From contig NZ_CP127385.1 of the NCBI RefSeq assembly GCF_030378205.1, forward strand, positions 1,838,001 to 1,902,000: a DNA stretch of 64,000 nucleotides. Reading direction: 5' to 3'. Both the position numbers and the translations under genes were made by a program. Positions 4,343 through 21,827 of the stretch are shown here, in pieces. Origin of the DNA: Bradyrhizobium sp. NP1 (lineage in GTDB: Bacteria; Pseudomonadota; Alphaproteobacteria; Rhizobiales; Xanthobacteraceae). The notes under the pieces were generated by a model, which was not told where the DNA came from, made no database searches, and saw nothing but the letters and a program-made list of their open reading frames with translations. Numbering within the stretch: the first letter of the stretch is position 1; each line of letters begins with the position of its first letter.

Positions 4343-4906
4343 TCAGGCCGCCTTGGCCTTCGCCACATGGGTGGAAATCGCATCCATTAGTGCCGGCGAC
4401 AGGCAATCATAGGGCTCAAGGCCGAGCTCCTTGAGGCGAGACCGGATTTCATCCATTTGTTCCGGTTTGACGCCGGACTCGATCACGGAAGACACGAAGG
4501 CCGCAAAACCTGGCGCCGCCCAGCCGCCTTCCTCGAAAAGTTCGGGGTGAATGAAATCGAGGCCGTAGAACGGGTGGCCCTTGTTCTCAATGCGGCCGTA
4601 CATATGCGTGCCGCAGGCCCTGCAGGCGTATCGCTGGATGGTCGCCGCGGTGTCGACGATCTGGAGCTTGTCGCCATTTTCAAGCACCGTCACATTCTGG
4701 CGCGGCACAACGGCAACGACGGAGAAGGTCGCGCCTTCGGGCTTCCAGCATTTTGTGCAGCCGCAGGCATGATTGTGCGCGACGTCGCCCTTGATGCCGA
4801 TTTTGACCGGCTTGTCCTTGCATTTGCAGACCAGCGTCCCTCCCGAAAAGCTCCCAGAGCCTTTCTTCACGCCGTTGTCGATTGCAGGGTGGATATGAAC
4901 GGTCAT
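4343..4906 (-). CDS. gfa: Glutathione-dependent formaldehyde-activating enzyme
   Basis: Gfa family protein (187 aa) reported to speed condensation of formaldehyde with glutathione to S-hydroxymethylglutathione. Zinc-binding cysteines are visible as VCKCKDK, the C-G-C-x2-C block in HACGCTKCW, and [10 protein letters not shown], as expected for the family. The start has an AAGGAGGG ribosome site. It is the last gene of a leftward operon after xoxF, cytochrome c and formaldehyde dehydrogenase, 31 bases from its neighbour. That places it directly downstream of methanol oxidation. The same gene set (xoxF, cytochrome, adhI, gfa) is known from Rhodobacter and Paracoccus relatives. Confidence 0.92.
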
Positions 4907-4937: not shown

Positions 4938-6047
4938 TCAGAACACGACAACCGAACGGATCGACTTGCCTTCGTGCATCAAGTCGAACCCCTTGTTGAT
5001 TTCTTCGAGCTTGAGGACATGGGTGATCATCGGATCGATCTGGATCTTTCCGCTCATGTACCAGTCGACAATCTTCGGCACGTCGGTGCGGCCACGCGCA
5101 CCGCCGAACGCGGTGCCCTTCCAGACGCGGCCGGTGACGAGCTGGAATGGACGGGTGGAAATCTCCTTTCCGGCTTCTGCGACGCCGATAATGACGGAGA
5201 CTCCCCAGCCGCGATGGCCGCATTCGAGCGCCTGGCGCATCACCGTCGTGTTGCCGGTGCAATCGAAGCTGAAATCGGCGCCGCCATCGGTGAGCGCGAC
5301 CAGATGCTGGACGAGATCGCCGGAAACCTTCTTCGGGTTGACGAAGTCGGTCATACCGAATTTGCGGCCCCATTCCTCCTTCGAATCGTTGACGTCGACG
5401 CCAATGATCTTGTCCGCGCCGACCATCTTGGCGCCCTGAATGACGTTGAGTCCGATGCCGCCGAGCCCGAAGACGACGACGTTCGCGCCCGGCGTGACCT
5501 TGGCGGTGTTGACGACGGCGCCGACGCCTGTCGTGACGCCACAGCCGATATAGCAGCTCTTGTCGAATGGGGCGTCCTCGCGGATTTTTGCCACCGCTAT
5601 CTCTGGCAGAACCGTGAAGTTCGAAAACGTGGAGCAGCCCATGTAGTGGTAGATCGTTTTTCCCCGATAGCTGAAGCGCGACGTGCCGTCCGGCATCACG
5701 CCCTTACCCTGGGTGGCGCGAATCGCCGTGCAAAGATTGGTTTTTTGGCTGAGGCAGCTTTTGCATTGGCGGCATTCGGGCGTGTAGAGCGGGATGACAT
5801 GGTCGCCGGGTTTCACGGAGCTTACTCCTGCTCCAACCTCGCGCACGATGCCCGCGCCCTCATGGCCGAGGATGGAAGGAAATATCCCCTCGCTGTCGAA
5901 GCCGTCGAGTGTATAGGCATCGGTGTGACAGATCCCGGTCGCCTTGATCTCGACCATGACCTCGCCGGCCTTCGGCCCTTCAAGGTCGAGCTCAACGATT
6001 TCCAGCGGCTTCTTTGCCTCGAAAGCGACGGCGGCGCGTGTCTTCAT
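4938..6047 (-). CDS. adhI: S-(hydroxymethyl)glutathione dehydrogenase (class III alcohol dehydrogenase)
   Basis: Zinc- and NAD-dependent enzyme (369 aa) converting S-hydroxymethylglutathione to S-formylglutathione in the cytoplasm. The catalytic zinc Cys is in [20 protein letters not shown] follows, and the structural zinc cysteines are in [15 protein letters not shown]. The Rossmann motif is [11 protein letters not shown]. The length is standard for class III ADH (frmA/flhA/adhI). It lies between the cytochrome and gfa genes with gaps of 40 and 31 bases. Its product is the substrate of FghA, encoded at 22.5-23.3 kb. The symbol follows the Rhodobacter naming. Confidence 0.95.
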
Positions 6048-6087: not shown

Positions 6088-6603
6088 TCAATGTCCCATG
6101 CAGGCGTTCTCGGTCTCGGCGTAGGCTGCGGATTTGTCTTCATGCTTGGGCGGACGCACGCGACCGACAGCATTGTCGGCACGCGCGCGCAGGTAGATGT
6201 AGATATCGTCCATGTAGCAGGCCACGTTCGGATTATCGCCAAAGGCCGGCATCACGTTCTCTTGCGCCGTGTTGACGTTCTTGCGGCCGCTCGCGACCAC
6301 TCCCAGGAAATCGGCGTAGCTCATCGTCTTGAGCGAGTCCTTTAGCGCGGGAGCGTAGCTCGATCCCATTCCATCCGGCCCGTGGCAGACGTGACAGTCC
6401 GAATGATAGCGCCGGTATCCGGAATAGGTGTACCAGTCGACCGTGCCGTCAGCCGCAACCTTGAAAGTCGGAATCCCGTCCTTGTCGAAATATTTGCCGT
6501 TTTCGGATTTGACCGCGGTCGGATCGCCCGAGCCGTCCGCAAGGGCGTTCCTTTCGGCTACGATAACGATCGTCGCTGCAGCCAGCAGCAGGATACTGCG
6601 CAC
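6088..6603 (-). CDS. Periplasmic c-type cytochrome, methanol metabolism-related (XoxG/CycI-like)
   Basis: 171-aa precursor with a short hydrophobic leader and one haem-attachment site CHVCH near residue 68. A possible axial Met lies in VMPAFGDN, and two more Cys lie near the C-terminus (VACYMD, NACMGH). The four-Cys pattern matches the small cytochrome family that travels with methanol dehydrogenases. It follows xoxF by 77 bases and precedes adhI, the same order as xoxF-cycI-adhI in Rhodobacter. It is therefore the likely electron acceptor of XoxF. The leader is slightly unusual (IVIVAERNALA), so the cleavage site is uncertain. Confidence 0.88.
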   Translation of the reverse strand: MRSILLLAAATIVIVAERNALADGSGDPTAVKSENGKYFDKDGIPTFKVAADGTVDWYTYSGYRRYHSDCHVCHGPDGMGSSYAPALKDSLKTMSYADFLGVVASGRKNVNTAQENVMPAFGDNPNVACYMDDIYIYLRARADNAVGRVRPPKHEDKSAAYAETENACMGH

Positions 6604-6680: not shown

Positions 6681-8486
6681 TCATTGCGGCAGGGCGAACA
6701 CGGTGAGTGTTCCACCGAGCGCGGTGTAGTTGCTCAGCGCAGCATAGCCGCCGACCGCGCCGAGACCTTCTGTCGGCTCGGTCAAGCCGGCCGCGAGGCC
6801 GATGCCTGCCCAGCCACCCACGCCGGACAACACGGCGATGTACTGCTTGCCGCTGTGCTCATAGGTCGTGACGTTGCCGATGATGCCGGACGGCGTCTTG
6901 AACTTGTAGAGTTCCTTGCCTGTCTTGGCATCGACCGCCTTCAGGTAGCCTTCGAGCGTGCCGTAGAACACCACGCCGCCGGCGGTCGCGAGCGCGCCCG
7001 ACCAGACCGAGAACTGCTCCTTGACCGACCAGACGATCTTGCCGGTCTTGCCGTCCCAGGCAATGAAGTTGCCCATGTTGCTTTCGCCGGGAGGCGGATA
7101 CATCGACAGCGTCGCGCCCACATAGGGCTGACCCGCGGTGTAGCTCACCTTGAACGGCTCATAGTCCATGCAGACGTGGTTGGTCGGAACGTAGAACAGC
7201 TGCGTTTCCGGCGAGTAGGCCGCGGGCTGCTCGTCCTTGGTGCCGAGCGCCGCCGGGCAGATTCCCTTGACGTTATGGTCCTCGCCTTGCTTGTCGGTCG
7301 AATATTGATCGACAACCTTCGGCCGGGCATAGGTCGGCGAGCTCTTGTTCATGTCGACGCCGGTGGTCCAGTTCACCTTCGGATCGTATTTCTGGGCAAC
7401 CAGCAATTCGCCGGTGACGCGATCAAGCGTGTAGCCCAGCCCGTTGCGGTCGAAGTGGGTTAGGAGCTTGCGCGATGTGCCGTTGACCTGCTGATCGGTG
7501 AGGATCATCTCGTTGACGCCGTCATAGTCCCACTCGTCATGGGGCGTCATCTGGTAGACCCACTTCGCCACGCCGGTATCGGGGTTGCGCGCGAAGATGG
7601 TCATCGACCACTTGTTGTCGCCCGGACGCTGCTTCGGGTTCCAGGTCGAGGGATTGCCGGAGCCATAGTACATGAGGTCGAGCTGCGGATCGTAGGCGAT
7701 CCAGCCCCAGGTGCAGCCTCCGCCGATCTTCCACTGGTCACCTTCCCAGGTCTTCAGGCTGGAGTCCTTGCCGACCGGCTTGCCGAGTTCGGTGGTCTTC
7801 TGCGGATCGAACAGCATCTGGTCGTCCGGCCCTTCGGAATAGGCCTTCCAGACCTGCTTGCCGTCCTTGATGTCGTAGGCGGTCATGCTGCATTGCACGC
7901 CGAATTCGCCGCCGGAGGTGCCGACCAGCACTTTGTCCTTGATCACGGCAGGTGCCGAGGTGCCGGTCTGTCCTTTCGATGGATCGCCGTTTGTTGCGCT
8001 CCAGACAAGGTCGCCGGTCTTGGCGTTGAGCGCGACCAGCTTGTCGTCCGCCTGGTGCAGGAAGATCTTCCCGTCGGCATAGGCAAGACCGCGGTTCACC
8101 GTGTCACAGCACATCACGGGAATGACATTTGGATCCTGCTTCGGTTCGTACCTCCAGACGATCTTGTTGTCCTGTGAAAGGTCAAGAGCATAGACCTTGT
8201 TGGGGAAAGGCGTGTGGACGTACATCATGTTGCCGATTACGAGCGGGCCGCCTTCGTGGCCGCGCAACACGCCCGTCGAGAACGTCCAGGCGACCTGCAA
8301 TTTTCCGACATTGGACGCGTTGATCTGGTTGAGCTTGGAGTAGCGCGTATTGGCGTAGTCGCCGGTCGGCATCACCCAGTCCTTGGGGTTTTGCGACATC
8401 TTGATCAGTTCGTCGCTGGCTGACGCGCTCCCTGCGGCAAATGCCGCCACAGACCCCAGACAGCTTGCTAACAGCACCTTGCGCAT
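6681..8486 (-). CDS. xoxF: Lanthanide-dependent, PQQ-containing methanol dehydrogenase XoxF
   Basis: Periplasmic quinoprotein (601 aa) oxidising methanol to formaldehyde. It has a signal peptide (about residues 1-24) and eight-bladed propeller repeats. The vicinal disulphide pair is C126-C127. The metal site is visible: Glu in GGEFGV (about 194), Asn in GSGNPS (about 278) and the block DEWDYDG with Asp 320 and Asp 322. The second Asp of D-Y-D is the lanthanide signature, Ala in calcium-type MxaF. An in-frame ATG at 8546 exists, but the GGAGG just before 8486 and the signal peptide place the start at 8486. It heads the operon with cytochrome, adhI and gfa. No mxaF or mxaI is present in the window. 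Confidence 0.97.
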
Positions 8487-8825
8487 CGTGCATCCTCCCA
8501 CACCTGAAATTTCGGGTTCCCGACAGAACGGCCCGCTTTTCTTCATGGTTTCCGTACGCCTTTCGCAAAGGTGAGACTTGCCTGATAGCGAAACGCATTT
8601 GCACAGCAGGGAAACCCGACCAAACTTTTTTCGGCTTCATCCGGCCCGCTGCGAGGCGCCCGGTGTGGCGTCCCTTGGGATCGGCTGCCTGGATGTTTGT
8701 CTTGACGCGATAGGAGCTTGGTCGGAGGATCATATGCGGCGACTGAGCTCCCGATTTCCGCCTCAAATTGAATGTCGCCTAGTGTGCGTTGCTGCGAGCC
8801 CACGGCTGATCATCGGTGGCGAGAA
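8487..8825. promoter_or_regulatory. Divergent xoxF / araC control region
   Basis: 339 bases between the xoxF start (leftwards) and the AraC regulator start (rightwards). The region must carry both promoters. It includes the AT-richer tract around 8575-8640 upstream of xoxF. I could not identify a convincing -35/-10 pair or a clear repeat by eye. It is listed because any lanthanide or methanol control of xoxF, and AraC autoregulation, should act here. Confidence 0.6.
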
Positions 8826-9791
8826 ATGTCGGACACGGTCCACTCACTCAGCACTTCAGGATTGGGCTCGAAGGAGCAAATCCGGTATTGGTCAGATGCG
8901 CTGACGGACCTCTGTGGCCGGTTCGACGTCGATCCGCTGGAGGCGTCAGCCCTGGAGGGCCGGATCAGCTACACGACCGTGTCGCGGCTGAAGCTCTGCC
9001 AGATCGAAGCAAGCCAGCATCGGATCGCTCACACCTCTTCGAAAAGCCAGGGCAGCGAGCACCCGTTCGTCAAAATCCTGTTTCAGATCCAGGGGGTTTC
9101 TTATTTCGAGCAGAATGGCTGCCAGATACAGGTGACCCCCGGCGATTGCCTCGCCTATGACGTTTCCTGTCCCCACACCATTATCAGCCCGTCGCTGACG
9201 CGCCATGAAGTCGTCATCGTGCCGAAGGAATTGCTGCGCGAACGCGGTTTCCATTTTGCAAAGATGTCGGCGTGCAAGCTGTCGGCGCGCAACGGCACCG
9301 GCCGAATCGCGCACGACGTCGCGCATGCAGCTTTTGACGAGGCTGCCAGGCTCTCGCCGAACAGTGCGGCCGGCGTCGCCGATTCGCTGATCGATCTTCT
9401 GTTGTTGCCGCTTCGTGAGGCCGATACGGCCTTCGACCGGTCCGGTCCGGAGGCGATGTATGTGAGGGCGCAGGCTTTCATCCGCGAGCATCTGCGCGAC
9501 CCGGCTCTCTGCATTGACCAGATTTCCGCGGAGCTTGGCTGCACCAAGCGCTATCTGCATATGCTGTTCAGCGAAAGGGGAATGACCGTCGGCGATTCAA
9601 TCTGGCGGGCGAGATTGCAACATTGCCGGCAGGAGCTGGAAGCGCATGCCGGAAAGACGGTCACGGACGTCGCATTCTCGTGGGGCTTTTCCAGCTCGTC
9701 GCATTTCAGCCGCGTCTTTCGCAAGTGCTATGGCGTCGTGCCGTCGGCCATTCACAAAGGGCCGCATGGCGGCGCGTCGGATGTTACCTGA
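8826..9791 (+). CDS. AraC family transcriptional regulator divergent from xoxF
   Basis: 321-aa regulator. The N-terminal half is an AraC_binding_2-like sensor domain (for example PFVKILFQIQGVSYFEQ, then GDCLAYDVSCPH). The C-terminal half has two helix-turn-helix units (ISAELGCTKRYLHMLFSERG and VTDVAFSWGFSSSSHFSRVF). A Met at 8772 is also in frame. I prefer 8826, which follows GGTGGCGAG and gives the usual family N-terminus. It is transcribed away from xoxF across a 339-base spacer, so it is a good candidate for xoxF control. Known xoxF regulators in other organisms are mostly two-component systems. The effector is unknown. Confidence 0.85.
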   Translation: MSDTVHSLSTSGLGSKEQIRYWSDALTDLCGRFDVDPLEASALEGRISYTTVSRLKLCQIEASQHRIAHTSSKSQGSEHPFVKILFQIQGVSYFEQNGCQIQVTPGDCLAYDVSCPHTIISPSLTRHEVVIVPKELLRERGFHFAKMSACKLSARNGTGRIAHDVAHAAFDEAARLSPNSAAGVADSLIDLLLLPLREADTAFDRSGPEAMYVRAQAFIREHLRDPALCIDQISAELGCTKRYLHMLFSERGMTVGDSIWRARLQHCRQELEAHAGKTVTDVAFSWGFSSSSHFSRVFRKCYGVVPSAIHKGPHGGASDVT

Positions 9792-10059
9792 CGGCTTGCC
9801 CATCAACTCGGGAAGCATTCGGGCAAGCGGTGGGCCGCGGTTTGGTCCCGCGTTTGTCGATGGGAACCTTGCAGTTGTCGATTCGCTGCTCGTCCGTCCA
9901 TTTCGGGCCGAGCCGTTCTTTCCCGGTCAGCGTCGGCCCGGTTGCAGGCAGGGCGGCGTTTATCGCGCCCGGGTCAAGCTCTCCGTCCTCGGCGAGTGCG
10001 CAGGACGCAAAGCCGGTGAACAACAACGAGATAAGCAGGCCTCGATGTAACGATCCCAC
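9784..10059 (-). CDS. Small secreted protein of unknown function
   Basis: 91-aa precursor starting at GTG with a strong AGGAGG five bases upstream. It has a clear signal peptide (LLISLLFTGFASCALA) and a mature part of about 68 residues with two Cys and the block LGPKWTDEQRIDNCKVP. I recognise no domain. It overlaps the araC gene end by eight bases in convergent orientation and is divergent from the lanmodulin-like gene, inside the lanthanide island. A periplasmic role linked to metal or quinoprotein function is possible but only inferred from place. Confidence 0.7.
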   Translation of the reverse strand: MGSLHRGLLISLLFTGFASCALAEDGELDPGAINAALPATGPTLTGKERLGPKWTDEQRIDNCKVPIDKRGTKPRPTACPNASRVDGQAVR

Positions 10060-10205: not shown

Positions 10206-10610
10206 ATGATGATTTCGCGTCGAAATGTCCTTCTGGTGTCCGCGGCGCTGTTGGCGGAATCGAGTTCGTCTGCCCTGGCGGCGTCCCGTGGCGATCCGAT
10301 CAAGATGTTCGACACCGATGCCGACGGCACGCTCGACCTTGCCGAGGTGAAGAAAGCGGCGTCGGCATTGTTCGCAAAGCTCGATCGTGATCACGACGGC
10401 ACGCTCGACAGGCGCGAATTGTCTGGCCGGCTGAGCGCCCGCGAGCTCGCGGCCGCCGATCCCGATCACGATGGAACGCTGACGCTGGACGAATATCTGG
10501 CCGTCGTGGAGCAGCGCTTCAACGCGGCGAACCGGGATAATGACGGAACGCTGGACGCAAAAGAGCTGAGCACGCCGGCCGGGCGAGCGCTGTTGCGATT
10601 GTTGAGATAG
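10206..10610 (+). CDS. lanM: Lanmodulin-like periplasmic EF-hand protein
   Basis: 134-aa precursor with four 12-residue EF loops at residues 36-47, 60-71, 85-96 and 109-120. The loop spacings of 12, 13 and 12 residues, the linkers (FAKLD, YLAVVEQRFNAAN) and the C-terminus (TPAGRALLRLLR) follow Methylorubrum lanmodulin, a picomolar lanthanide binder. Differences: the second-position Pro typical of lanmodulin is present only in loop 3 (DPDHDGT); loops 1, 2 and 4 carry Thr, Arg and Arg. Loop 3 has Thr at position 9. The leader contains SRRNVLL, a twin-arginine-like motif, unlike the plain Sec leader of Methylorubrum. ATG 10206 follows GGGAG; the frame is open further upstream. It lies between araC-xoxF and pqqA, as expected for lanthanide handling. 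Confidence 0.85.
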   Translation: MMISRRNVLLVSAALLAESSSSALAASRGDPIKMFDTDADGTLDLAEVKKAASALFAKLDRDHDGTLDRRELSGRLSARELAAADPDHDGTLTLDEYLAVVEQRFNAANRDNDGTLDAKELSTPAGRALLRLLR

Positions 10611-10718: not shown

Positions 10719-10799
10719 ATGACCTGGAAGACCCCGAAGATCGTCGAAGTGCAGGTGGGCATGGAAATCAACATGTACGCCTGCGCGGTGCGCAAATAG
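10719..10799 (+). CDS. pqqA: Pyrroloquinoline quinone precursor peptide PqqA
   Basis: 26-residue peptide MTWKTPKIVEV...MYACAVRK, too short for routine ORF calling. The Glu and Tyr that are cross-linked to make PQQ are present as E-I-N-M-Y (residues 16 and 20, the invariant E-x3-Y spacing). A GGGAGG ribosome site lies six bases upstream. No pqqB, C, D or E gene follows, so it is a stand-alone precursor gene placed among PQQ-enzyme genes. Other pqq genes must be elsewhere. A weak promoter candidate (TTGCAT at 10635, spacer 17, TACGGT) lies upstream. Confidence 0.9.
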   Translation: MTWKTPKIVEVQVGMEINMYACAVRK

Positions 10800-10975: not shown

Positions 10976-11842
10976 ATGGCTATTCCTGCAAGATCATTTG
11001 GCGCCGCAATGCGGTGCTTTTTCGTGCTGTTGCCGGCCTTCGCTCATGCTGAGGGCATCGACACCGAGCATGTATTTGCCTTCATGATTGGCAGCGATGT
11101 GGGCACTGTCGGCGAGCGCGAATTCCAGAGCACGACGACGGGAAGTTTCTCGAAGGATGGCGGCAGGTACGCGGCCTTCGATCAGGAGTTTGAAGTCGAG
11201 TTCTTGCCGGCCAGAAATTTCCGTGTCGAAATCGGCGCCGCGCTGGCGGCGCACGCGATTGACGGCGTCGCAGGTTTCGAGAACCGCAACGAGGCGGGCG
11301 TGCAGGGGGCAGCTCTGGATCTCCGCTACAAGTTTCTCGATCGGGACGCCGCCCCCTTCGGCTTGACGCTGGCGCTGGAGAGCCACGCGAGCCGCATCGA
11401 TGAGATCTCCGCTGCGCCGGTCCGAAATTATGGGGCCGAATTGATCCTGGCACTGGAGCGGGACGTGATCCCGAACGTCGCGGTGGCGACCCTCAATCTG
11501 AGCTATCAGCCGGAATGGAACCATTTTGTGGGCGCGCAGGCGGGGGAACAGGAGGCCACGCTCGGCGCCGCTTTCGGAATCATGGCGCAACTTCAACCCG
11601 GCGTCCTTTTCGGTGGCGAGATGCGCTACTTCCGGAGGTATGAAGGGATCGGTCTTGAACGACTGGCTGGACAAGCTCTCCTTGTCGGTCCGACCGCCTA
11701 TTTTCAGCTGTCGGAGCGCGCACGACTAACTGTGAACTGGAGCGTTCAGGCTTGGGGGCGCCCGGCAGGATCGAGCCCGTCGCTGGATCTTGTCAATTTC
11801 GAGCGTCATCAGGCGCGGCTGGTTTTCGGCGCAAACTTCTGA
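10976..11842 (+). CDS. Putative outer-membrane beta-barrel protein in lanthanide island
   Basis: 288-aa protein with a signal-like leader (FFVLLPAFAHAEG). Alternating hydrophobic/polar strands run through the mature part and the C-terminus is the aromatic Phe typical of outer-membrane barrels (LVFGANF). I recognise no named family. Another possible start is Met at 11009, immediately before the hydrophobic leader. It lies downstream of pqqA on the same strand, after a 176-base gap. It could be a porin-like channel or transporter serving the methanol or lanthanide system; this is inference from position only. Confidence 0.65.
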   Translation: MAIPARSFGAAMRCFFVLLPAFAHAEGIDTEHVFAFMIGSDVGTVGEREFQSTTTGSFSKDGGRYAAFDQEFEVEFLPARNFRVEIGAALAAHAIDGVAGFENRNEAGVQGAALDLRYKFLDRDAAPFGLTLALESHASRIDEISAAPVRNYGAELILALERDVIPNVAVATLNLSYQPEWNHFVGAQAGEQEATLGAAFGIMAQLQPGVLFGGEMRYFRRYEGIGLERLAGQALLVGPTAYFQLSERARLTVNWSVQAWGRPAGSSPSLDLVNFERHQARLVFGANF

Positions 11843-14751: not shown

Positions 14752-15672
14752 CTATTCCCATTCAATTTCAGAAAATGCCGTGGTCGCGTTGCGTGCATTG
14801 TAGTCATCGAACAATTGCCATCGCGACCGCTCGGAGGCAGCAGCCCGCTCTGCCGCAGATCGGATCGGTTCACCGCGGGCCAGTGATGCGCGGATATCAG
14901 CGTCCAGCGTTTCAAGGTAGCGGCGTTCGTCGGCAAGCGCGGCTGGCCATTGGCTCACCGGTCCGTGACCAGGAACCACTTGCCGGGCGGGCAGGGCGGC
15001 GAGCGCTTTGACGGAGGCCAGAAAGCCGCGAATACTGCCATCGACGACCGGAACATGCGCAAGAAAGACGAGGTCGCCCGCAAAGAGCGTTGCCGTCTGC
15101 TCGTCCAGAACGGTGAGATCATTGTCGGAGTGCGCGGTCGGCCACGCGTGCAGCACGAGGGAGCGCGAACCAAGATCCAGCCTGAGTGTGTCCGCAACAA
15201 GCAGCGTTGGCGGCACCAGCCGGACCTCGTCGATCAGCGCCTCGCCCATGATGGAGCGAAAGGCATCGAGGTAGAAGGGCCCGCGCGTCGAGAGCGCCTG
15301 GGGAAGATTGTGGTGCCCGACAAACGTCGTCCCGCTGCCGATGAACGCCGCGTTTCCGAAGATGTGATCCGGATGGCCATGGGTGTTGATGACGTAGCGG
15401 ATCGGCTTGTCGGTCCGGGCAAGGATGGCCGCACGCAGTCGGCGTCCCTCGCGGACGCTGCCTCCCGTATCGATCACCGCGACCGCATCATCGCCGATCA
15501 CGAAGCCGACATTGGCAATGGCGCCGTCATTGTCGCGCGTCATCAGCGCGGTCGATCCCTCGTGCACATAGACGCCGGGCGCAACCTCGCGCACCTCTAA
15601 CGCCTGCTGCTGCGCCCGTACCGGTCCGCAGAGCAGCAACAGGCAGGCAAGAATCCAGGTGCAGCGGATCAC
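14752..15672 (-). CDS. Quinoprotein relay system zinc metallohydrolase (MBL fold)
   Basis: 306-aa secreted metallo-beta-lactamase fold protein. The signal peptide is [18 protein letters not shown]. The zinc motif H-x-H-x-D-H is in [10 protein letters not shown], later ligands in AHSDNDL and FAGDLVF, and the last His in VVPGHGPVS. The GTG at 15672 has GGAGG about seven bases upstream, so the longer open frame to 15786 is not used. The family pairs with SoxYZ-like carriers beside quinoprotein dehydrogenases, as here. The substrate is unknown; a thiol ester on the carrier is a reasonable guess. Confidence 0.87.
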
Positions 15673-15873
15673 GCTGCGGCCTCCATTGCGCTGAGCATGA
15701 CCGCCTGTTTCTGTTCCATCGATCCGACCTGTTGCATCGCAACGTGCGGCGGACGTGTCGTGAAGATTATCCGTTGAAGGCCACAATCAGGCAGCATAGC
15801 ATCCCGCCGCGCCTCGCGCCGCTATCCAGACGCGTCGTCTCGTCATTGCCAATGTGCTCGAAAGTTGGCGCCC

Positions 15874-16821
15874 ATGCAAAAGCCGAAGCAGCCTCCTCGG
15901 ACAAAAGCCAGGACAAGCACGACGACAGGCATCGCGGAGAGGAAAGTAGCTTTGCGGCGTCGTCCGCAAGCGTCGGCTCTTGCGACTATTGTCTTGCTTG
16001 GCAGTTGCGCACTCGCGCGCGCGCAAGTAAGCGACACCGGTGACCTGTCGATCGAGCTTGTCGACCCCAAGGTCTTGCGGGTGTGCGCCGACCCGCGCAA
16101 TCTGCCGTTCTCCAACGAGAAGGGCGAGGGATTCGAGAATAAGCTCGCCGAGCTGTTTGCCGACAAGCTGCAGAAGAAGCTCGATTATGTCTACTTTCCC
16201 CAGGCGACCGGTTTTGTCCGGATGACGCTCGGTGCCCATCGTTGCGACGTCATCATGGGATTTCCGCAAGGCGATGATCTCGTGCAGGCGACCAATCCCT
16301 ATTACCGAACGGCTTACGCGCTGGTCACACGACAAGGCGGCGGATTGGAAGAGGTCTCCACGCTGGAGGACGAGCGGCTCAGGGGCAGGCATATCGGAGT
16401 CGTCGCGGGTACGCCGCCTGCCACAAACATGGCCGCCAACGGGCTGATGGCGTATGCCAAGCCCTACCCGCTGATGATTGATACGCGTGTCGACTCGTCG
16501 GTCGAAGCCATGGTCAATGACCTCGCGGCCGGCAAGATCGATGCCGGTGTCCTGTGGGGGCCGATGGCGGGCTTCTACGCGAAGAAGGCCAACCCGGCGC
16601 TGCATGTCACGCCGCTGGTCAAGGAAACGGCCGGACCGCGGCTCGTCTACCGTATCGGCATGGGCGTGCGACCCGCCGACCAGAACTGGAAGCGCCTGCT
16701 CAATCGGCTGATCCAGGAGAACCAGCCGGCGATCAACAAGATCCTGCTTGATTACGGCGTTCCCTTGCTCGACGAAGACGATCATCCGATCGATGCGGCG
16801 GCAGCGACGAAGTCGCCATGA
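15874..16821 (+). CDS. xoxJ: XoxJ/MxaJ-like periplasmic substrate-binding protein
   Basis: 315-aa protein of the extracellular solute-binding type that accompanies methanol dehydrogenases and is thought to help XoxF activation. Visible: LRVCADPRNLPFSNEKGEGFEN, split here as LRVCADPRNLPF then SNEKGEGFEN, followed by GAHRCDVIMGFP and KIDAGVLWGPMAGFYAK. The leader has an unusually long basic n-region (about 35 residues) before ATIVLLGSCALARA, so the true start is uncertain; TTG 15865 is three codons upstream. The next gene overlaps its stop by four bases (ATGA), indicating coupling. Confidence 0.87.
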   Translation: MQKPKQPPRTKARTSTTTGIAERKVALRRRPQASALATIVLLGSCALARAQVSDTGDLSIELVDPKVLRVCADPRNLPFSNEKGEGFENKLAELFADKLQKKLDYVYFPQATGFVRMTLGAHRCDVIMGFPQGDDLVQATNPYYRTAYALVTRQGGGLEEVSTLEDERLRGRHIGVVAGTPPATNMAANGLMAYAKPYPLMIDTRVDSSVEAMVNDLAAGKIDAGVLWGPMAGFYAKKANPALHVTPLVKETAGPRLVYRIGMGVRPADQNWKRLLNRLIQENQPAINKILLDYGVPLLDEDDHPIDAAAATKSP

Positions 16822-17381
16822 GCGGAAGGCGCGAAGGCCTGGTCCTCGCGGCATTCATGTTCGCGACGACGGCCTTTGCGCAGCAACAGGTCGGTGAGCC
16901 CGAAGGCTATCGCACGGACGATTACCAGGCACCTGTGCCGTCGCGCCTTGCCGGCGCGCGGGTGCTCTCGACCGCCGAGGCTGAGGCGATGTGGCGAGCA
17001 CATGACGGCGTTTTCGTTGATGTGCTGCCGCGCCCGCCGAAGCCGAAGGGCCTTCCTCCCGGTACGGTATGGCGCGACAAGCCACGGCTCAACATCCCCG
17101 GAAGCATCTGGTTGCCCGACACCGGCTATGGCGTCTTGTCGCCTGCGACCGAGGACTATCTGCGCCGCGGTCTTGCGCGCGCGTCCCGGGGCGATCCCTC
17201 CGTGCCGCTCGTCATCTACTGTCTGGCGGATTGCTGGATGTCGTGGAACGCGGCGAAGCGCGCGTTGAGCTACGGCTATCGAAACGTGGCCTGGTTTCCC
17301 GAGGGGACGGATGGCTGGGAGCGCGCCTCCCTCCCGTTCACCGAGGCGCAGCCGGAGCCGCGGCCGGGCGAGGAAAGATAG
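16818..17381 (+). CDS. PQQ-dependent catabolism-associated CXXCW-motif protein (rhodanese-like)
   Basis: 187-aa secreted protein with signal peptide (GLVLAAFMFATTAFAQ) and a rhodanese-like fold. The active-site-like segment is IYCLADCWMSWNAAKRAL, after NIPGSIWLPDTGYG. The Cys-Cys-Trp segment defines a family found only near PQQ dehydrogenases. It is translationally coupled to xoxJ and ends four bases before the convergent lut-type operon end. The role is unknown; sulphur or redox maintenance of the quinoprotein system is a guess. Confidence 0.87.
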   Translation: MSGRREGLVLAAFMFATTAFAQQQVGEPEGYRTDDYQAPVPSRLAGARVLSTAEAEAMWRAHDGVFVDVLPRPPKPKGLPPGTVWRDKPRLNIPGSIWLPDTGYGVLSPATEDYLRRGLARASRGDPSVPLVIYCLADCWMSWNAAKRALSYGYRNVAWFPEGTDGWERASLPFTEAQPEPRPGEER

Positions 17382-17385
17382 CCTG

Positions 17386-18000
17386 CTACTCCATTTCCTG
17401 CTGGATCACGCGGCCGAGCGCGAACAGCCGCTGATCGATCGTGGTCGGAACGTCGCAGACAAATTTCACGACCCGGCGCCGATCCTCGAAAATCCGGGTC
17501 TCCCAAATCAGCTGATTGCTCAGCTCGTCGATCTTGGGCTGGTCCGGCGGGGAAGCATCCTGCAGGGCTTGCAGCGCCAGCGTGTCAGACCGGATCTTCT
17601 CCGCAGCTGTTCGCTGCTTGCGCATGACGCGCTCGAGGCCATTCATGACCGAAGAGCGCTGCGCATTGAGCGTATCGAACAGACCGGCGAACAACTGCTT
17701 GCCGGCTGCAAGCTTGTCGGTCGAACTGGTGATGAACTCGCTGGCGTCCTTTTGCGCTTCCTCAAGCGGGGTACGGCGCGCGGCGAGCCGCGCCACGAGC
17801 GCGGCAAGCTTGGCGTCGTCCTTCCACTTGTCCTGGACATCGTCAAGCGAAGGCCCGGCCCACACCGCCGGCAGGGATATTTCCGGAACCTTGGCTTGCG
17901 CACATGGCCAGTCCGGAAAGCGCGGATCGGCTGCAAGGCTGAATTCGCCGGAGGCCGCGACCGCGATCAGCGCGCCGATCATCGTGATCCGCCAACTCAT
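17386..18000 (-). CDS. Periplasmic protein coupled to the lut-type ABC transporter
   Basis: 204-aa precursor. The signal peptide (ITMIGALIAVAASGEFSLA) is followed by a largely helical domain with likely coiled-coil stretches (LVARLAARRTPLEEAQKDA; VMRKQRTAAEKIRSDTLAL). Two Cys are present (WPCAQ, KFVCDVP). The ATG overlaps the permease stop (ATGA) and GGAGG precedes it. The much longer open frame to 18969 reads through the permease and is not real. It is the last gene of the transporter operon, the place of a lutG-like exported protein in Methylorubrum, though I cannot confirm homology. Confidence 0.8.
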   Translation of the reverse strand: MSWRITMIGALIAVAASGEFSLAADPRFPDWPCAQAKVPEISLPAVWAGPSLDDVQDKWKDDAKLAALVARLAARRTPLEEAQKDASEFITSSTDKLAAGKQLFAGLFDTLNAQRSSVMNGLERVMRKQRTAAEKIRSDTLALQALQDASPPDQPKIDELSNQLIWETRIFEDRRRVVKFVCDVPTTIDQRLFALGRVIQQEME

Positions 18001-18845
18001 GTCTCGCCTCCGGCGGGGCCGCGACGGCTGAAGCCGCGTGATGGATCGTAGGCGTAGATGGCTCCGACCATGAAGGCAACCGTGCAGCCCGCCACCACGG
18101 CGAACGAAACCCAGTTCATCTTCATGTAAAAGGCGAAGCGGATCAGTTCCACCGCGTGGGTGAACGGATTGATCTGACAGACGTAGTAGAGAAACGGACT
18201 TCCTTCCTGAACCCGCCAGAGCGGATAGAGCGCGGAGGAAGCAAAAAACATCGGGAAGATGACGAAGTTCATCACGCCGGCAAAGTTCTCGAGCTGGCGA
18301 ATGCCGGAGGAAATCAGCATGCCGAGGGCTCCGAGCATCAAGCCCGACAGCACCAGCGCCGGCAGCACCGTCAGATAGCCGAGCGGCGGCGGCTCGATGT
18401 CCCAGAACCAGGCGATCAGCAGGAAGGCATAGACCTGGAGCAGCGAAACCGCGGTTCCGGCGAGGAGCTTGCAAAGCAGCAGGTACCATCGCGGCAGCGG
18501 GCTCACCAGCAAGGTGCGCATGTTCCCCATCTCGCGGTCGTAGACCATCGACAGCGATGACTGCATGCCGTTGAAGAGCTGGATCATCGCCATCAAGCCG
18601 GGCGCGATATAGACCTCGTAAAGGACGTAGGTCTCGTAGGGCGGGATGATGGAGATACCAAGCACCTGACGGAAACCGGCGGCGAAAATGAACAGCCAGA
18701 CCAGCGGCCTCACCAGCGCCGAGATGAAGCGCTCGCGCTGATGCAGGAAGCGCAGCCCCTCGCGCCAGACGATGCCGATCAGGCAGGTCGCGTACTCCGC
18801 AAGCGAAAAGCCGCTCCGTTCGTTCTCGATCGTCGTCGCGCTCAT
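17997..18845 (-). CDS. lutF: ABC-2 type permease, PQQ-dehydrogenase-associated (lut type)
   Basis: 282-aa inner-membrane protein with about six hydrophobic segments (for example LVWLFIFAAGFRQVLG, LPALVLSGLMLGALGMLIS, VVAGCTVAFMVGAIYAY). It shows the ABC-2 features GMQSSLSMVYDREMGNMR and LLVSPLPRWYLLLCKLL. It overlaps the ATPase gene by four bases upstream and the periplasmic gene by four bases downstream. It corresponds to the membrane part of the lanthanide-linked Lut system of Methylorubrum and PedC of Pseudomonas putida, both required for lanthanide-dependent growth. Import into the cytoplasm is the published model; here it is inferred. Confidence 0.85.
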   Translation of the reverse strand: MSATTIENERSGFSLAEYATCLIGIVWREGLRFLHQRERFISALVRPLVWLFIFAAGFRQVLGISIIPPYETYVLYEVYIAPGLMAMIQLFNGMQSSLSMVYDREMGNMRTLLVSPLPRWYLLLCKLLAGTAVSLLQVYAFLLIAWFWDIEPPPLGYLTVLPALVLSGLMLGALGMLISSGIRQLENFAGVMNFVIFPMFFASSALYPLWRVQEGSPFLYYVCQINPFTHAVELIRFAFYMKMNWVSFAVVAGCTVAFMVGAIYAYDPSRGFSRRGPAGGET

Positions 18846-19660
18846 GACCGGAGGTTTCCCGGTTTTGCGGCTGCGTCGGTGAGGCGCCTGAAGGCGGATT
18901 GAATGTCATCGCCCCCGGCCTCGGCGATGACGCGCGCGGCCGGGCCGGATGCCAGGATGCGGCCTTCATGCAGGATCACGAGCTCGTCGCTTGCCGTGAC
19001 CTCATCCAGTAAATGCGTGGCCCAGAGCACGCCGATGTTCTGTTCGGCCACGAGCTGCCGCACATGGGTCAGGATATCGGCGCGAGCCCTCACATCGAGC
19101 CCGACGGTCGCCTCATCGAGCAGAAGCAGGCGCGGCCGGTGCAGCAGAGCGCGTGCGATTTCGAGCCGCCGCATCTGTCCGCCCGAGAGATCGCGAACCT
19201 TGCTGCTGGCGCGGTCGGCAAGACCGATATGTGGCAGCAGGCGATGGCTACGCTCGATGGCATCGCGCCTGCCGATGCCATGCAAGGCGGCGTGGTAGAG
19301 CAGGTTCTGCCTGACCGAGAGATCCAGGTCGAGTGTCCGCGGCTGGAACACGACGCCCATCAGCCGCAGCGCCTCGCCGGGTTCGCGGCCGATGTCATGG
19401 CCGAAGATGCTGACGTGTCCCGACTGAATCCCGAACAGACGCGTCACCAGCGAGAACAGGGTGCTCTTGCCGGCACCGTTCAGGCCGAGCAGCGCGGTGA
19501 AGCCGGCAGGCGCGACCGTGAAGCTGATGTTGTCAAGAGCGCGTCTTGCACCATAGGAATGGCTGAGACCCGCGATCGATAGAGCCGGCGCGGTGTGAAG
19601 GCCGGGCTTCGGGTCGGTGGCCGGCTCTCGGCCGGCAGCGGGCGCTTCGGTTATCGTCAT
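18842..19660 (-). CDS. lutE: ABC transporter ATP-binding protein, PQQ-dehydrogenase-associated (lut type)
   Basis: 272-aa ATPase with Walker A GLNGAGKST, Q-loop VFQPRTLD, signature LSGGQMRR, Walker B LLLLDEAT and switch His ATHLLDE. The start is the ATG at 19660 overlapping the beta-propeller stop. The longer open frame to 20050 lies over that gene and is discarded. It couples to the ABC-2 permease and resembles the LutE/PedB subunit of lanthanide-linked transporters. It is cytoplasmic, powering the transporter. Confidence 0.9.
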   Translation of the reverse strand: MTITEAPAAGREPATDPKPGLHTAPALSIAGLSHSYGARRALDNISFTVAPAGFTALLGLNGAGKSTLFSLVTRLFGIQSGHVSIFGHDIGREPGEALRLMGVVFQPRTLDLDLSVRQNLLYHAALHGIGRRDAIERSHRLLPHIGLADRASSKVRDLSGGQMRRLEIARALLHRPRLLLLDEATVGLDVRARADILTHVRQLVAEQNIGVLWATHLLDEVTASDELVILHEGRILASGPAARVIAEAGGDDIQSAFRRLTDAAAKPGNLRS

Positions 19661-20628
19661 GGCTGCGCAATCGTGATGCCCCAGGGCAGCTCGCCGACCT
19701 GGATCGTCTTGATGACTTTCAGCGCGGCGACGTCGATCACGGAGACGTCGTTTGAGACGCCGTTCGTGACCAGCAGATATTTTTCGTCCGGCGTGAAGGC
19801 GGTATGCCAGACCCGTTGGCCGACGAGAAGATATTTGGTGACCGCGTGGCTCGTGCCGTCGACGACGGCGATCCGATTGGCCGGGCCAAGTGCAACGAAC
19901 CCGGTCTTGCCGTCCCGGGTGATGCTGATGCCGACCGGCTGGATCGCTTCCCGCCGCAGGCCGGGAATGCTGAATTCGATCTTGCCGGTCACCACGTGCT
20001 TGGCGGGATCGATGATCGATACGGTGCCGCCGATTTCGGACGAGACCCATAATTCGGATCCATCACGCTTGAATTCGGCGTAGCGCGGGCGCGAGTCGAC
20101 CAGCACGTTGGCAACGATGCGGCGCGACGCGACATCGATGAAATGCGCCATGTTGGTCGTTTCGGAGGTGTTGATCAGGATCTTGCCGTCCGGGCTGACG
20201 GCCATGCCCTCGGGCTCCACTCCGACCTGGATGTCGCCGACGCGGGTGCGCTTTTCGAGATCGACGACGGTGACGGTGTTGTCGTTCTCGTTGGCGACGT
20301 ACAGGGTCTTGCCGGCGAGATCCTGGGTGAACAGTTCGGGATCGGGCCCGGAGGGCAGCGTGTCGACGACTTGCCGGGTTGCAACGTCGATCACCTGGAT
20401 CGTGTCGTCGTCGCCGACTGCGACCAGCACGAACTTGCCGTCCCGCGTGAATTCGATGCCGCGCGGCCGCTGTCCGACCTTGATGGTATGGATGAGCGAC
20501 CACGTATTGGTATCGATGACCGACACCGTATTGCCCTTCTCGTTCGAGACATAGGCGATGAAGGCCTGCGCGGGCGCAACCGCTGCCAGCCAGCCGGCTA
20601 TCACGCAAAGCAGGGCATGGCGCCGCAT
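19657..20628 (-). CDS. PQQ-dependent catabolism-associated YVTN beta-propeller protein
   Basis: 323-aa secreted protein with signal peptide (LLCVIAGWLAAVAPAQA). It has six to seven YVTN-type propeller repeats (YVSNEKGNTVSVIDTNTW, YVANENDNTVTVVDLEKR, WVSSEIGGTVSIIDPAKH). These proteins sit in the ABC operon next to PQQ dehydrogenases (PedA2 in P. putida; an exported Lut protein in Methylorubrum). It lies 17 bases downstream of the substrate-binding gene and is coupled to the ATPase gene by ATGA. A role in presenting metal or cofactor to the transporter is possible but unproven. Confidence 0.88.
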   Translation of the reverse strand: MRRHALLCVIAGWLAAVAPAQAFIAYVSNEKGNTVSVIDTNTWSLIHTIKVGQRPRGIEFTRDGKFVLVAVGDDDTIQVIDVATRQVVDTLPSGPDPELFTQDLAGKTLYVANENDNTVTVVDLEKRTRVGDIQVGVEPEGMAVSPDGKILINTSETTNMAHFIDVASRRIVANVLVDSRPRYAEFKRDGSELWVSSEIGGTVSIIDPAKHVVTGKIEFSIPGLRREAIQPVGISITRDGKTGFVALGPANRIAVVDGTSHAVTKYLLVGQRVWHTAFTPDEKYLLVTNGVSNDVSVIDVAALKVIKTIQVGELPWGITIAQP

Positions 20629-20645
20629 GCACGAATTCTCCGTCG

Positions 20646-21827
20646 TCAGTGAAGCTTACACCTGGTCTCGGGCCGGTCGACACCGAGGGTATCGAGTTCC
20701 GAGACCTGATGCAGAAAACCTTCCTGAGGTGAGACCGAGACGACCATGCGGCCGTCGGCGAGCAGGATGGGCTGGCGAAGCTGCAGGTTCCAGTCCCGCA
20801 GCGTCAGAGGCTGCCCCTTGAAAGCCGCAACGGAAAAGTCGGGGCCCTTGATGAACTCCAGCAGCCGCTTGGGGTCACCGGAGTTGGTCCGTGCGGCGGC
20901 CTCTCCGACCATGCGTGCCGCGGTCCACGCCTGCATGTCGAGCGCAGTCATCCGCCTTGACGTCATTTTCTGGAAGCGGTTCTGCAACTGGATCGCCCCC
21001 CATTGGTCATGCGCGGCATCCCAGCTCGTGGGCTTGAGGCCGGCCGAACCGGCCACCGGTCGCGGATCCCAGGTGCGGTAGGGCAGGTAGGCGGCGAAGA
21101 CCTCGCTTTCATCGGCCGCGACGAGGACGTCATAGGCAGGTGCTTGCTGCGTGAACACAGGCATCTGGCGCTGGATCAGGGTCACACCGCTGTCGCTGCG
21201 GCGCGCGCCGCCGCTATCCTCAAACGTCTTCTCCTGCACGATCTTCGCGCCGAAGCGCGTAGCCGCGCGCCGCAGCGCATCGGCGTAGAGCCGGTCGCGG
21301 TCATGCGATCCGACCACCAGCACCCAGCGCTTCCATTGCTTCCAAACCAGATATTGGGCAAGCGCGTCGGCGAGCATCGAGCGGGTCGGCGCCACATGGA
21401 TGATGTTGGCACGGCAATCCTCTTCGCGCAGGCGGTCGTCGATCGCGCCGGCATTCAGCAGCAGCGTTCCGCGGTCCCGCAGCGCGTCGGCGGCCTGCAG
21501 CAACTGATCCGCCGGCAGATCGGCAATGACGAAGCCGCTGTGATCGGCAAGGGTCGTCGCGGCCTTTGCGGCCTCATCGCCCTCCTTGAGGCGCACCACT
21601 TCCAGGGTGAAGTGCTGGTTCAGGAACTTGCCCGTGGTGTTGTTGTCCGCGATGGCGAGGCGGGCGCCGGCGATGCCATCGTCGCCGGGCGGCTGCTCGA
21701 CCAGGGACAATGTCGACCTCACGCCGGCCTGGCCCAGATATCCGATGCTGATTTCGATGGGGTCAGCGGCAAGCCCCGGCGTGGCCGCGATGCAAAGGCC
21801 GAGTGCACCGACCAACCACCGGATCAT
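20646..21827 (-). CDS. lutA: ABC transporter periplasmic binding protein, PQQ-dehydrogenase-associated (lut type)
   Basis: 393-aa precursor with signal peptide (LVGALGLCIAATPGLAA) and the two-lobed branched-chain amino-acid receptor fold (IEISIGYLGQAGVRSTLS, WVLVVGSHDRDRLYADALR, AYDVLVAADESEVFAAYLP). It is the first gene of a five-gene leftward operon. The family is restricted to PQQ alcohol dehydrogenase systems and corresponds to LutA of Methylorubrum and PedA1 of P. putida. The likely ligand is lanthanide, free or chelated; the sequence alone does not show it. Confidence 0.88.
   Translation of the reverse strand: MIRWLVGALGLCIAATPGLAADPIEISIGYLGQAGVRSTLSLVEQPPGDDGIAGARLAIADNNTTGKFLNQHFTLEVVRLKEGDEAAKAATTLADHSGFVIADLPADQLLQAADALRDRGTLLLNAGAIDDRLREEDCRANIIHVAPTRSMLADALAQYLVWKQWKRWVLVVGSHDRDRLYADALRRAATRFGAKIVQEKTFEDSGGARRSDSGVTLIQRQMPVFTQQAPAYDVLVAADESEVFAAYLPYRTWDPRPVAGSAGLKPTSWDAAHDQWGAIQLQNRFQKMTSRRMTALDMQAWTAARMVGEAAARTNSGDPKRLLEFIKGPDFSVAAFKGQPLTLRDWNLQLRQPILLADGRMVVSVSPQEGFLHQVSELDTLGVDRPETRCKLH

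Follow-up and report, generated by a model that had tools for sequence, protein, structure and literature searches.

A Bradyrhizobium lanmodulin with position-2 proline in one of its four EF loops

The lanM locus of Bradyrhizobium sp. NP1 raises the question of whether a lanmodulin (LanM) with proline at position 2 (P2) of a single EF loop has changed its metal preference, or whether it is an ordinary member of its family. The window analysed here is a 64,000-nucleotide stretch of this genome, and the position of the gene, its four loops, its neighbours and its relatives in the genus were compared with published data on LanM.

Identity of the protein and its EF loops

The lanM frame (10206..10610, + strand) runs from an ATG at 10206 to a stop codon ending at 10610 and encodes a predicted lanmodulin precursor of 134 aa. 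The protein scored 175.3 bits against the NCBIfam equivalog 'lanmodulin LanM' (NF053806, cut-off 135 bits), and this model matched all 42 of the 42 members of our LanM alignment A1. A phmmer comparison with solved structures gave Mex-LanM of Methylorubrum extorquens AM1 (6mi5, E 1.3e-32; 8fns, E 1.6e-32), followed by the LanM of Ancylobacter (9pi2, E 3.3e-19) and Hans-LanM of Hansschlegelia quercus (8dq2, E 3.2e-17). The best match outside LanM was a calcium-binding protein at E 7.3e-5, with calmodulins from 1.1e-4.

Four EF loops of 12 residues each were read from the translation. Loop 1 (DTDADGTLDLAE, 10311..10346, +) has T2, loop 2 (DRDHDGTLDRRE, 10383..10418, +) has R2 with codon CGT, loop 3 (DPDHDGTLTLDE, 10458..10493, +) has P2 and T9, and loop 4 (NRDNDGTLDAKE, 10530..10565, +) has N1 and R2 with codon CGG. 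P2 is therefore present in EF3 only, and the position-2 series T, R, P, R is encoded by ACC, CGT, CCC and CGG, each of the three non-proline codons being one base off a proline codon. The first-pass annotation had reported Thr, Arg and Arg in place of Pro in loops 1, 2 and 4, as well as Thr at position 9 of loop 3, and both readings held. In the phmmer alignment, the letters at positions 1, 3, 5 and 12 of all four loops are identical to those of Mex-LanM, and the window LanM, as read from its sequence, keeps the metal-ligand residues of that protein.

According to the available text of PMC10232371, the hallmarks of LanM are four EF hands, a spacing of 12-13 residues and at least one P2, together with a length under 200 residues, while calcium EF-hand proteins have roughly 25 residues between loops. 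The window protein has four loops in 134 aa, spacers of 12, 13 and 12 residues, as had been claimed earlier, and one P2, in EF3. All four loops are also matched by EF-hand Pfam models, and 'calcium-binding protein' is among the database names of relatives, as would suit a calmodulin-like calcium EF-hand protein that merely resembles LanM. However, such a protein is hardly credible here. By E-value, LanM outranks the best calmodulin by about 28 orders of magnitude, and similarity, the short spacers and the curated cut-off together rule this candidate out; the xoxF/pqqA neighbourhood described below also speaks against it. The comparison with calcium EF-hand proteins for which the first-pass annotation had called thus came out on the side of LanM, and its description of the protein as lanmodulin-like is confirmed by the NCBIfam cut-off and the phmmer ranking. 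On these comparisons the window protein is a lanmodulin.

The window LanM aligns with Mex-LanM without gaps and shares its loop spacing, N1 in EF4, D9 in EF1, EF2 and EF4, and the C-terminal PAG...R. The two differ in that Mex-LanM has P2 in four loops and the window LanM in one, with T9 in EF3 in addition. By the phmmer alignments, Hans-LanM and Ancylobacter LanM have the same loop spacing and likewise one P2, but in EF2 instead of EF3. The Hans type is described as having N1 and E9 as ligands of EF1-3 and a dimer network that involves Arg100, whereas the window LanM has D1/D1/D1 and D9/D9/T9 in these loops and so lacks there the N1 and E9 by which the Hans-type cluster is defined. The LanM of Methylobacterium aquaticum 22A is reported to have T for P2 in EF1 and K in EF2 (PMC9260416, in part); its remaining two loops retain P2, whereas the window LanM lacks it in EF4 too.

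The N-terminus (MMISRRN...ALA, 10206..10280, +) was recognized by eye as a probable export signal peptide with a twin-arginine-like SRRNVLL, and cleavage probably follows A25. With the twin-arginine motif defined as S or T, RR, any residue and two hydrophobic residues, it was found in 115 of 121 close proteins (the query and the best 120 of 3,720). A count anchored at the start in 155 distinct rows of the genus gave the motif in 128, RR only in 3 and neither in 24; for the 68 rows labelled Bradyrhizobium, the corresponding numbers were 48, 1 and 19. The motif was absent from all four Methylobacterium LanM rows, and the Pfam TAT model matched 1 of the 42 members of alignment A1, at E 0.042. From the anchored counts and the Pfam result, the twin arginine of LanM appears frequent but dispensable. 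If LanM were Tat-dependent, an exporter of folded proteins would carry a protein that is thought to be disordered without metal.

The xoxF-lanM-pqqA neighbourhood

The first-pass annotation had placed the gene beside xoxF and pqqA, and this is correct. The gene for the PQQ-dependent methanol dehydrogenase (xoxF, 6681..8546, -) matches TIGR03075 at 781.1 bits (cut-off 480.05) and has the lanthanide-type D-Y-D; its motif WDYD supplies the second of the two Asp residues that bind lanthanide, and such Asp pairs of XoxF enzymes are tabulated in PMC11845868. The name XoxF is based on TIGR03075, the WDYD motif and the context. Adjoining it is a gene for a predicted c-type cytochrome related to methanol metabolism (6088..6603, -; TIGR03874, 265 bits, cut-off 161.75). 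Near xoxF are also adhI (4938-6047) and gfa (4343-4906), which we take to be genes of glutathione-dependent formaldehyde oxidation.

Two frames lie between xoxF and lanM. The first encodes a probable AraC-family regulator (8772..9791, +), for which the best NCBIfam model, FeaR, fell short of its cut-off (167.5 against 199 bits). The second is a 91-aa ORF with a signal-like N-terminus between araC and lanM (9784..10059, -); family searches gave no match for it, and a similar ORF was found in 17 of 80 related loci. On the other side of lanM, a 26-aa frame (MTWKTPKIVEVQVGMEINMYACAVRK, 10719..10799, +) is presumably pqqA, a name that depends on a sequence motif. It is followed by a 288-aa ORF (10976-11842, +), perhaps an outer-membrane protein as judged by eye, without a match in family searches; a similar frame was seen in 50 of the 80 loci, usually downstream of pqqA. 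Farther along, a PQQ-associated cluster (14752-21827) comprises a xoxJ-like gene for a periplasmic protein (15865..16821, +; TIGR03871, 309.7 bits, cut-off 212.15) and an ABC system with a PQQ-linked beta-propeller and a binding protein, with family matches to TIGR03871, TIGR03864, TIGR03866 and TIGR03863. This cluster also holds what we assume to be a metallo-hydrolase.

The locus comparison comprised the best 80 of 107 relatives with flanking sequence, some of these loci being cut by contig ends. A xoxF-like frame was found near lanM in 63 of the 80 and a PqqA-like peptide, by regular expression, in 65; in two loci (L072 and L073) the xoxF-like match had another orientation. Loci with neither a xoxF-like frame nor a PqqA-like peptide were largely from outside Bradyrhizobium. 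By this comparison the xoxF-lanM-pqqA order is recurrent, and it is common in Bradyrhizobium. The gene for Mex-LanM, on the other hand, is reported to belong to the lut cluster.

The genome of the window (7.7 Mb, one contig) has only two members of TIGR03075, the XoxF described here (DYD) and a second enzyme (DYT). No second LanM over the NF053806 cut-off was found in it. A further match to this model, a 133-aa ORF with two EF loops, reached 30.2 bits, below the cut-off, and was rejected as a LanM; a 317-aa EF-hand ORF lies at another locus. Across the genus, 200 of 265 genomes had a LanM over the cut-off; in a sample of 397 from the order, which also took in Bradyrhizobium, the number was 29.

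Position-2 proline among related lanmodulins

Two sets of relatives were used. The larger was assembled from 296 loci and 121 proteins, of which 407 rows exceeded 60 bits; after removal of 69 repeats and 2 incomplete rows (405 rows had complete loops), 336 distinct sequences were left, a set enriched in near relatives of the query because the first protein search returned the best 120 of 3,720. P2 was present in none of the loops in 2 of these sequences, in one loop in 49, in two in 93, in three in 155 and in four in 37. By loop it occurred 50 times in EF1, 216 in EF2, 320 in EF3 and 262 in EF4, whereas positions 3, 5, 7 and 12 were near-invariant.

The less biased set took one LanM per genus genome and covered 155 of the 201 genomes that had a match at E 1e-15; the other 46 matched the window protein at E 6e-52 or weaker. 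Here the P2 count was none in 2, one in 5, two in 18, three in 108 and four in 22, and the commonest patterns were TPPP (101) and PPPP (22). Position 2 of EF1 was T in 123 of the 155 and position 9 of EF3 was T in 152 genomes and S in the remaining 3, where Mex-LanM has D9. T2 in EF1 and T9 in EF3 are thus the norm of the clade, shared with other Bradyrhizobium LanMs along with the gene order, and T9 as a peculiarity of the window protein is ruled out. While most other Bradyrhizobium LanMs are TPPP, the window LanM is TRPR, and its true departures from that pattern are R2 in EF2 and R2 in EF4. In the 155 genomes TRPR was found once, in the window's own; among the closest proteins (the query plus the best 120 of 3,720), 15 of 121 had it.

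That only 7 of the 155 genus genomes, the window's among them, have one P2 or none might be taken as a mark of a decaying LanM whose function is being lost. We consider this very improbable. The frame is intact, the N-terminus is signal-like and the ligands are kept, and proline-poor relatives are many, including the 49 of 336 with one P2 and 15 of 89 further relatives added by a second search (best 120 of 3,250). The counted dN/dS of the mature part was 0.06-0.17 against eight relatives, at dS values of 0.8-1.5 that are near saturation; from these estimates the mature part of the window LanM is under strong purifying selection.

The tempo of change was counted on a FastTree of 325 rows with the P2 columns left out, as the minimum number of state changes (for positions other than P2, the majority letter against the rest), in which gain and loss are not separable. 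These counts are rough because the tree, built on 104 columns and with 19 of its 318 inner branches starred, is poorly resolved. P2 changed at least 7 times in EF1, 41 in EF2, 7 in EF3 and 27 in EF4, and positions 3, 5 and 12 of the loops 0 to 4 times on the same tree. The non-ligand positions serving as controls changed 27, 12, 17 and 30 times (position 11) and 10, 23, 13 and 14 times (position 10) in EF1 to EF4. By this count no other of the 48 loop positions changes as often as P2 of EF2, and P2 of EF3 is rather stable. P2 of EF4 resembles a free position (27 changes against 30 at position 11), so its tempo alone says little on function.

Two genus genomes, G170 and G172, encode LanMs that have no P2 and are otherwise complete: L039 (TRHS; same gene at L298:996-1394, +) and L152 (TRGS; same gene at L297:903-1304, -), respectively. 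The assemblies are fragmented, with about 980 and 920 contigs, and 92 and 91% complete. The gene for L152 has pqqA on one side and araC on the other, with xoxF (WDYD), the cytochrome gene, adhI and gfa adjoining. That of L039, close to the beginning of a contig, is preceded by araC and followed by pqqA and xoxJ, the xoxF side being off the stretch. Both proteins thus have the usual neighbourhood and retained ligands. With L039 as the database query (best 120 of 3,250 matches), 89 further proteins were gained, of which at least three lack P2: P0122 (L039 itself), P0141 (TRGS) and P0146 (TRTA). The available part of a methane-oxidiser survey (PMC12482762) mentions sequences that lack known motifs and may be diverged forms of LanM or calmodulin; it also records LanMs carried on plasmids, 15 of them from Bradyrhizobium.

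Expected metal binding and the meaning of the proline series

Since P2 is scarce in the window LanM, the first-pass annotation had suggested a different metal preference. Published data, as far as the sources were available, do not support this: at least one P2 is enough for the hallmark, and Hans-LanM, with P2 in one of four loops, has Kd,app values of 68 pM for La, 91 pM for Nd and 60 uM for Ca (PMC10232371). The same source reports EF4 of Mex-LanM as binding at micromolar level only, and Mex-LanM is said to require millimolar Ca (PMC11845868). In three known LanMs, P2 is present in 3/4, 2/4 and 1/4 of the loops, and substitution of Ala for Pro in Mex-LanM reportedly keeps lanthanide affinity and reduces selectivity over Ca (PMC12603986, which cites earlier work for the substitution and is also the source of the single P2 of Hans-LanM). 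For the LanM of M. aquaticum 22A, in which two loops lack P2, a stoichiometry of 3.65 La per molecule is reported, and its apparent size shifts with La and less with Ca (PMC9260416). Among the open-access papers searched, none was found to report metal binding by a LanM from Bradyrhizobium, the window protein included.

From Hans-LanM, the 22A protein and the reports on the Pro to Ala variant, the window LanM is expected to have a high affinity for lanthanides and to respond moderately more strongly to Ca. A switch of the preferred metal in the window LanM is not indicated by its sequence and is not favoured by these analogies, which make a smaller gap between lanthanides and Ca plausible; the likeliest state, given the La and Ca values of Hans-LanM, would be one in which lanthanides are still selected but Ca is rejected somewhat less strongly. 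Hans-LanM is an imperfect guide, since its ligand set differs (N1, E9). Moreover, the substituents here are T and R, unlike the A of the Mex-LanM variant or the K of other cases, and the effect of an Arg beside a ligand may not follow those examples. In Mex-LanM, D9 is described as hydrogen-bonding coordinated solvent, so T9 of EF3 may alter second-sphere contacts across the clade.

We hypothesize, with a probability of roughly 0.85, that the window LanM is a lanmodulin of the ordinary Mex type from a Bradyrhizobium-type bacterium. It would be exported to the periplasm and disordered without metal, folding upon about three lanthanide ions in EF1-3, with EF4 presumably weak as in Mex-LanM. Lanthanide binding would be at the picomolar to sub-nanomolar level, and the protein may buffer or shuttle lanthanide for XoxF. 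The missing P2 probably spares lanthanide affinity and chiefly raises the residual Ca response, which would lie at tens of micromolar, as in Hans-LanM, and not at millimolar. The physiological role of LanM is uncertain, because deletion of lanM in M. aquaticum caused no growth defect according to the available text of PMC9260416.

An unlikely alternative is that loss of P2 has relaxed selectivity so far that the protein is a dual buffer of Ca and lanthanides, or a Ca-responsive periplasmic protein. The reduced selectivity of the Mex-LanM variant (PMC12603986, in part) and the response of Hans-LanM to Ca at 60 uM (PMC10232371, in part) would agree with it, as would T9 in place of D9 in EF3. However, EF3 retains its P2 and ligands, the spacers remain at 12-13 residues instead of the roughly 25 of Ca EF-hand proteins, and the adjoining XoxF is of the lanthanide type. 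T9 and the T2 of EF1 are, moreover, common to most of the clade, and are therefore no sign of a switch in the window LanM.

As an ordinary lanmodulin, the window protein, with one P2 in four loops, would be one step in a natural series that runs from four P2 to none. More tentatively, and with somewhat less than even confidence, we suggest that P2 may not be needed for a working LanM, given its recurrent changes in EF2 and EF4, against hardly any at the ligand positions 3, 5 and 12. Proteins without P2 would fall outside LanM as now defined, since the third published hallmark demands at least one; if they bind lanthanides selectively, this hallmark falls, and selectivity must then stem from the acidic ligand set, the short spacers and coupled folding. 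One proposed reason for the rejection of calcium by LanM, a protein studied for rare-earth recovery, is P2. Natural LanMs with every P2 count between four and zero, much alike in other respects, offer ready material for testing this proposal and may include some that prefer other metals.
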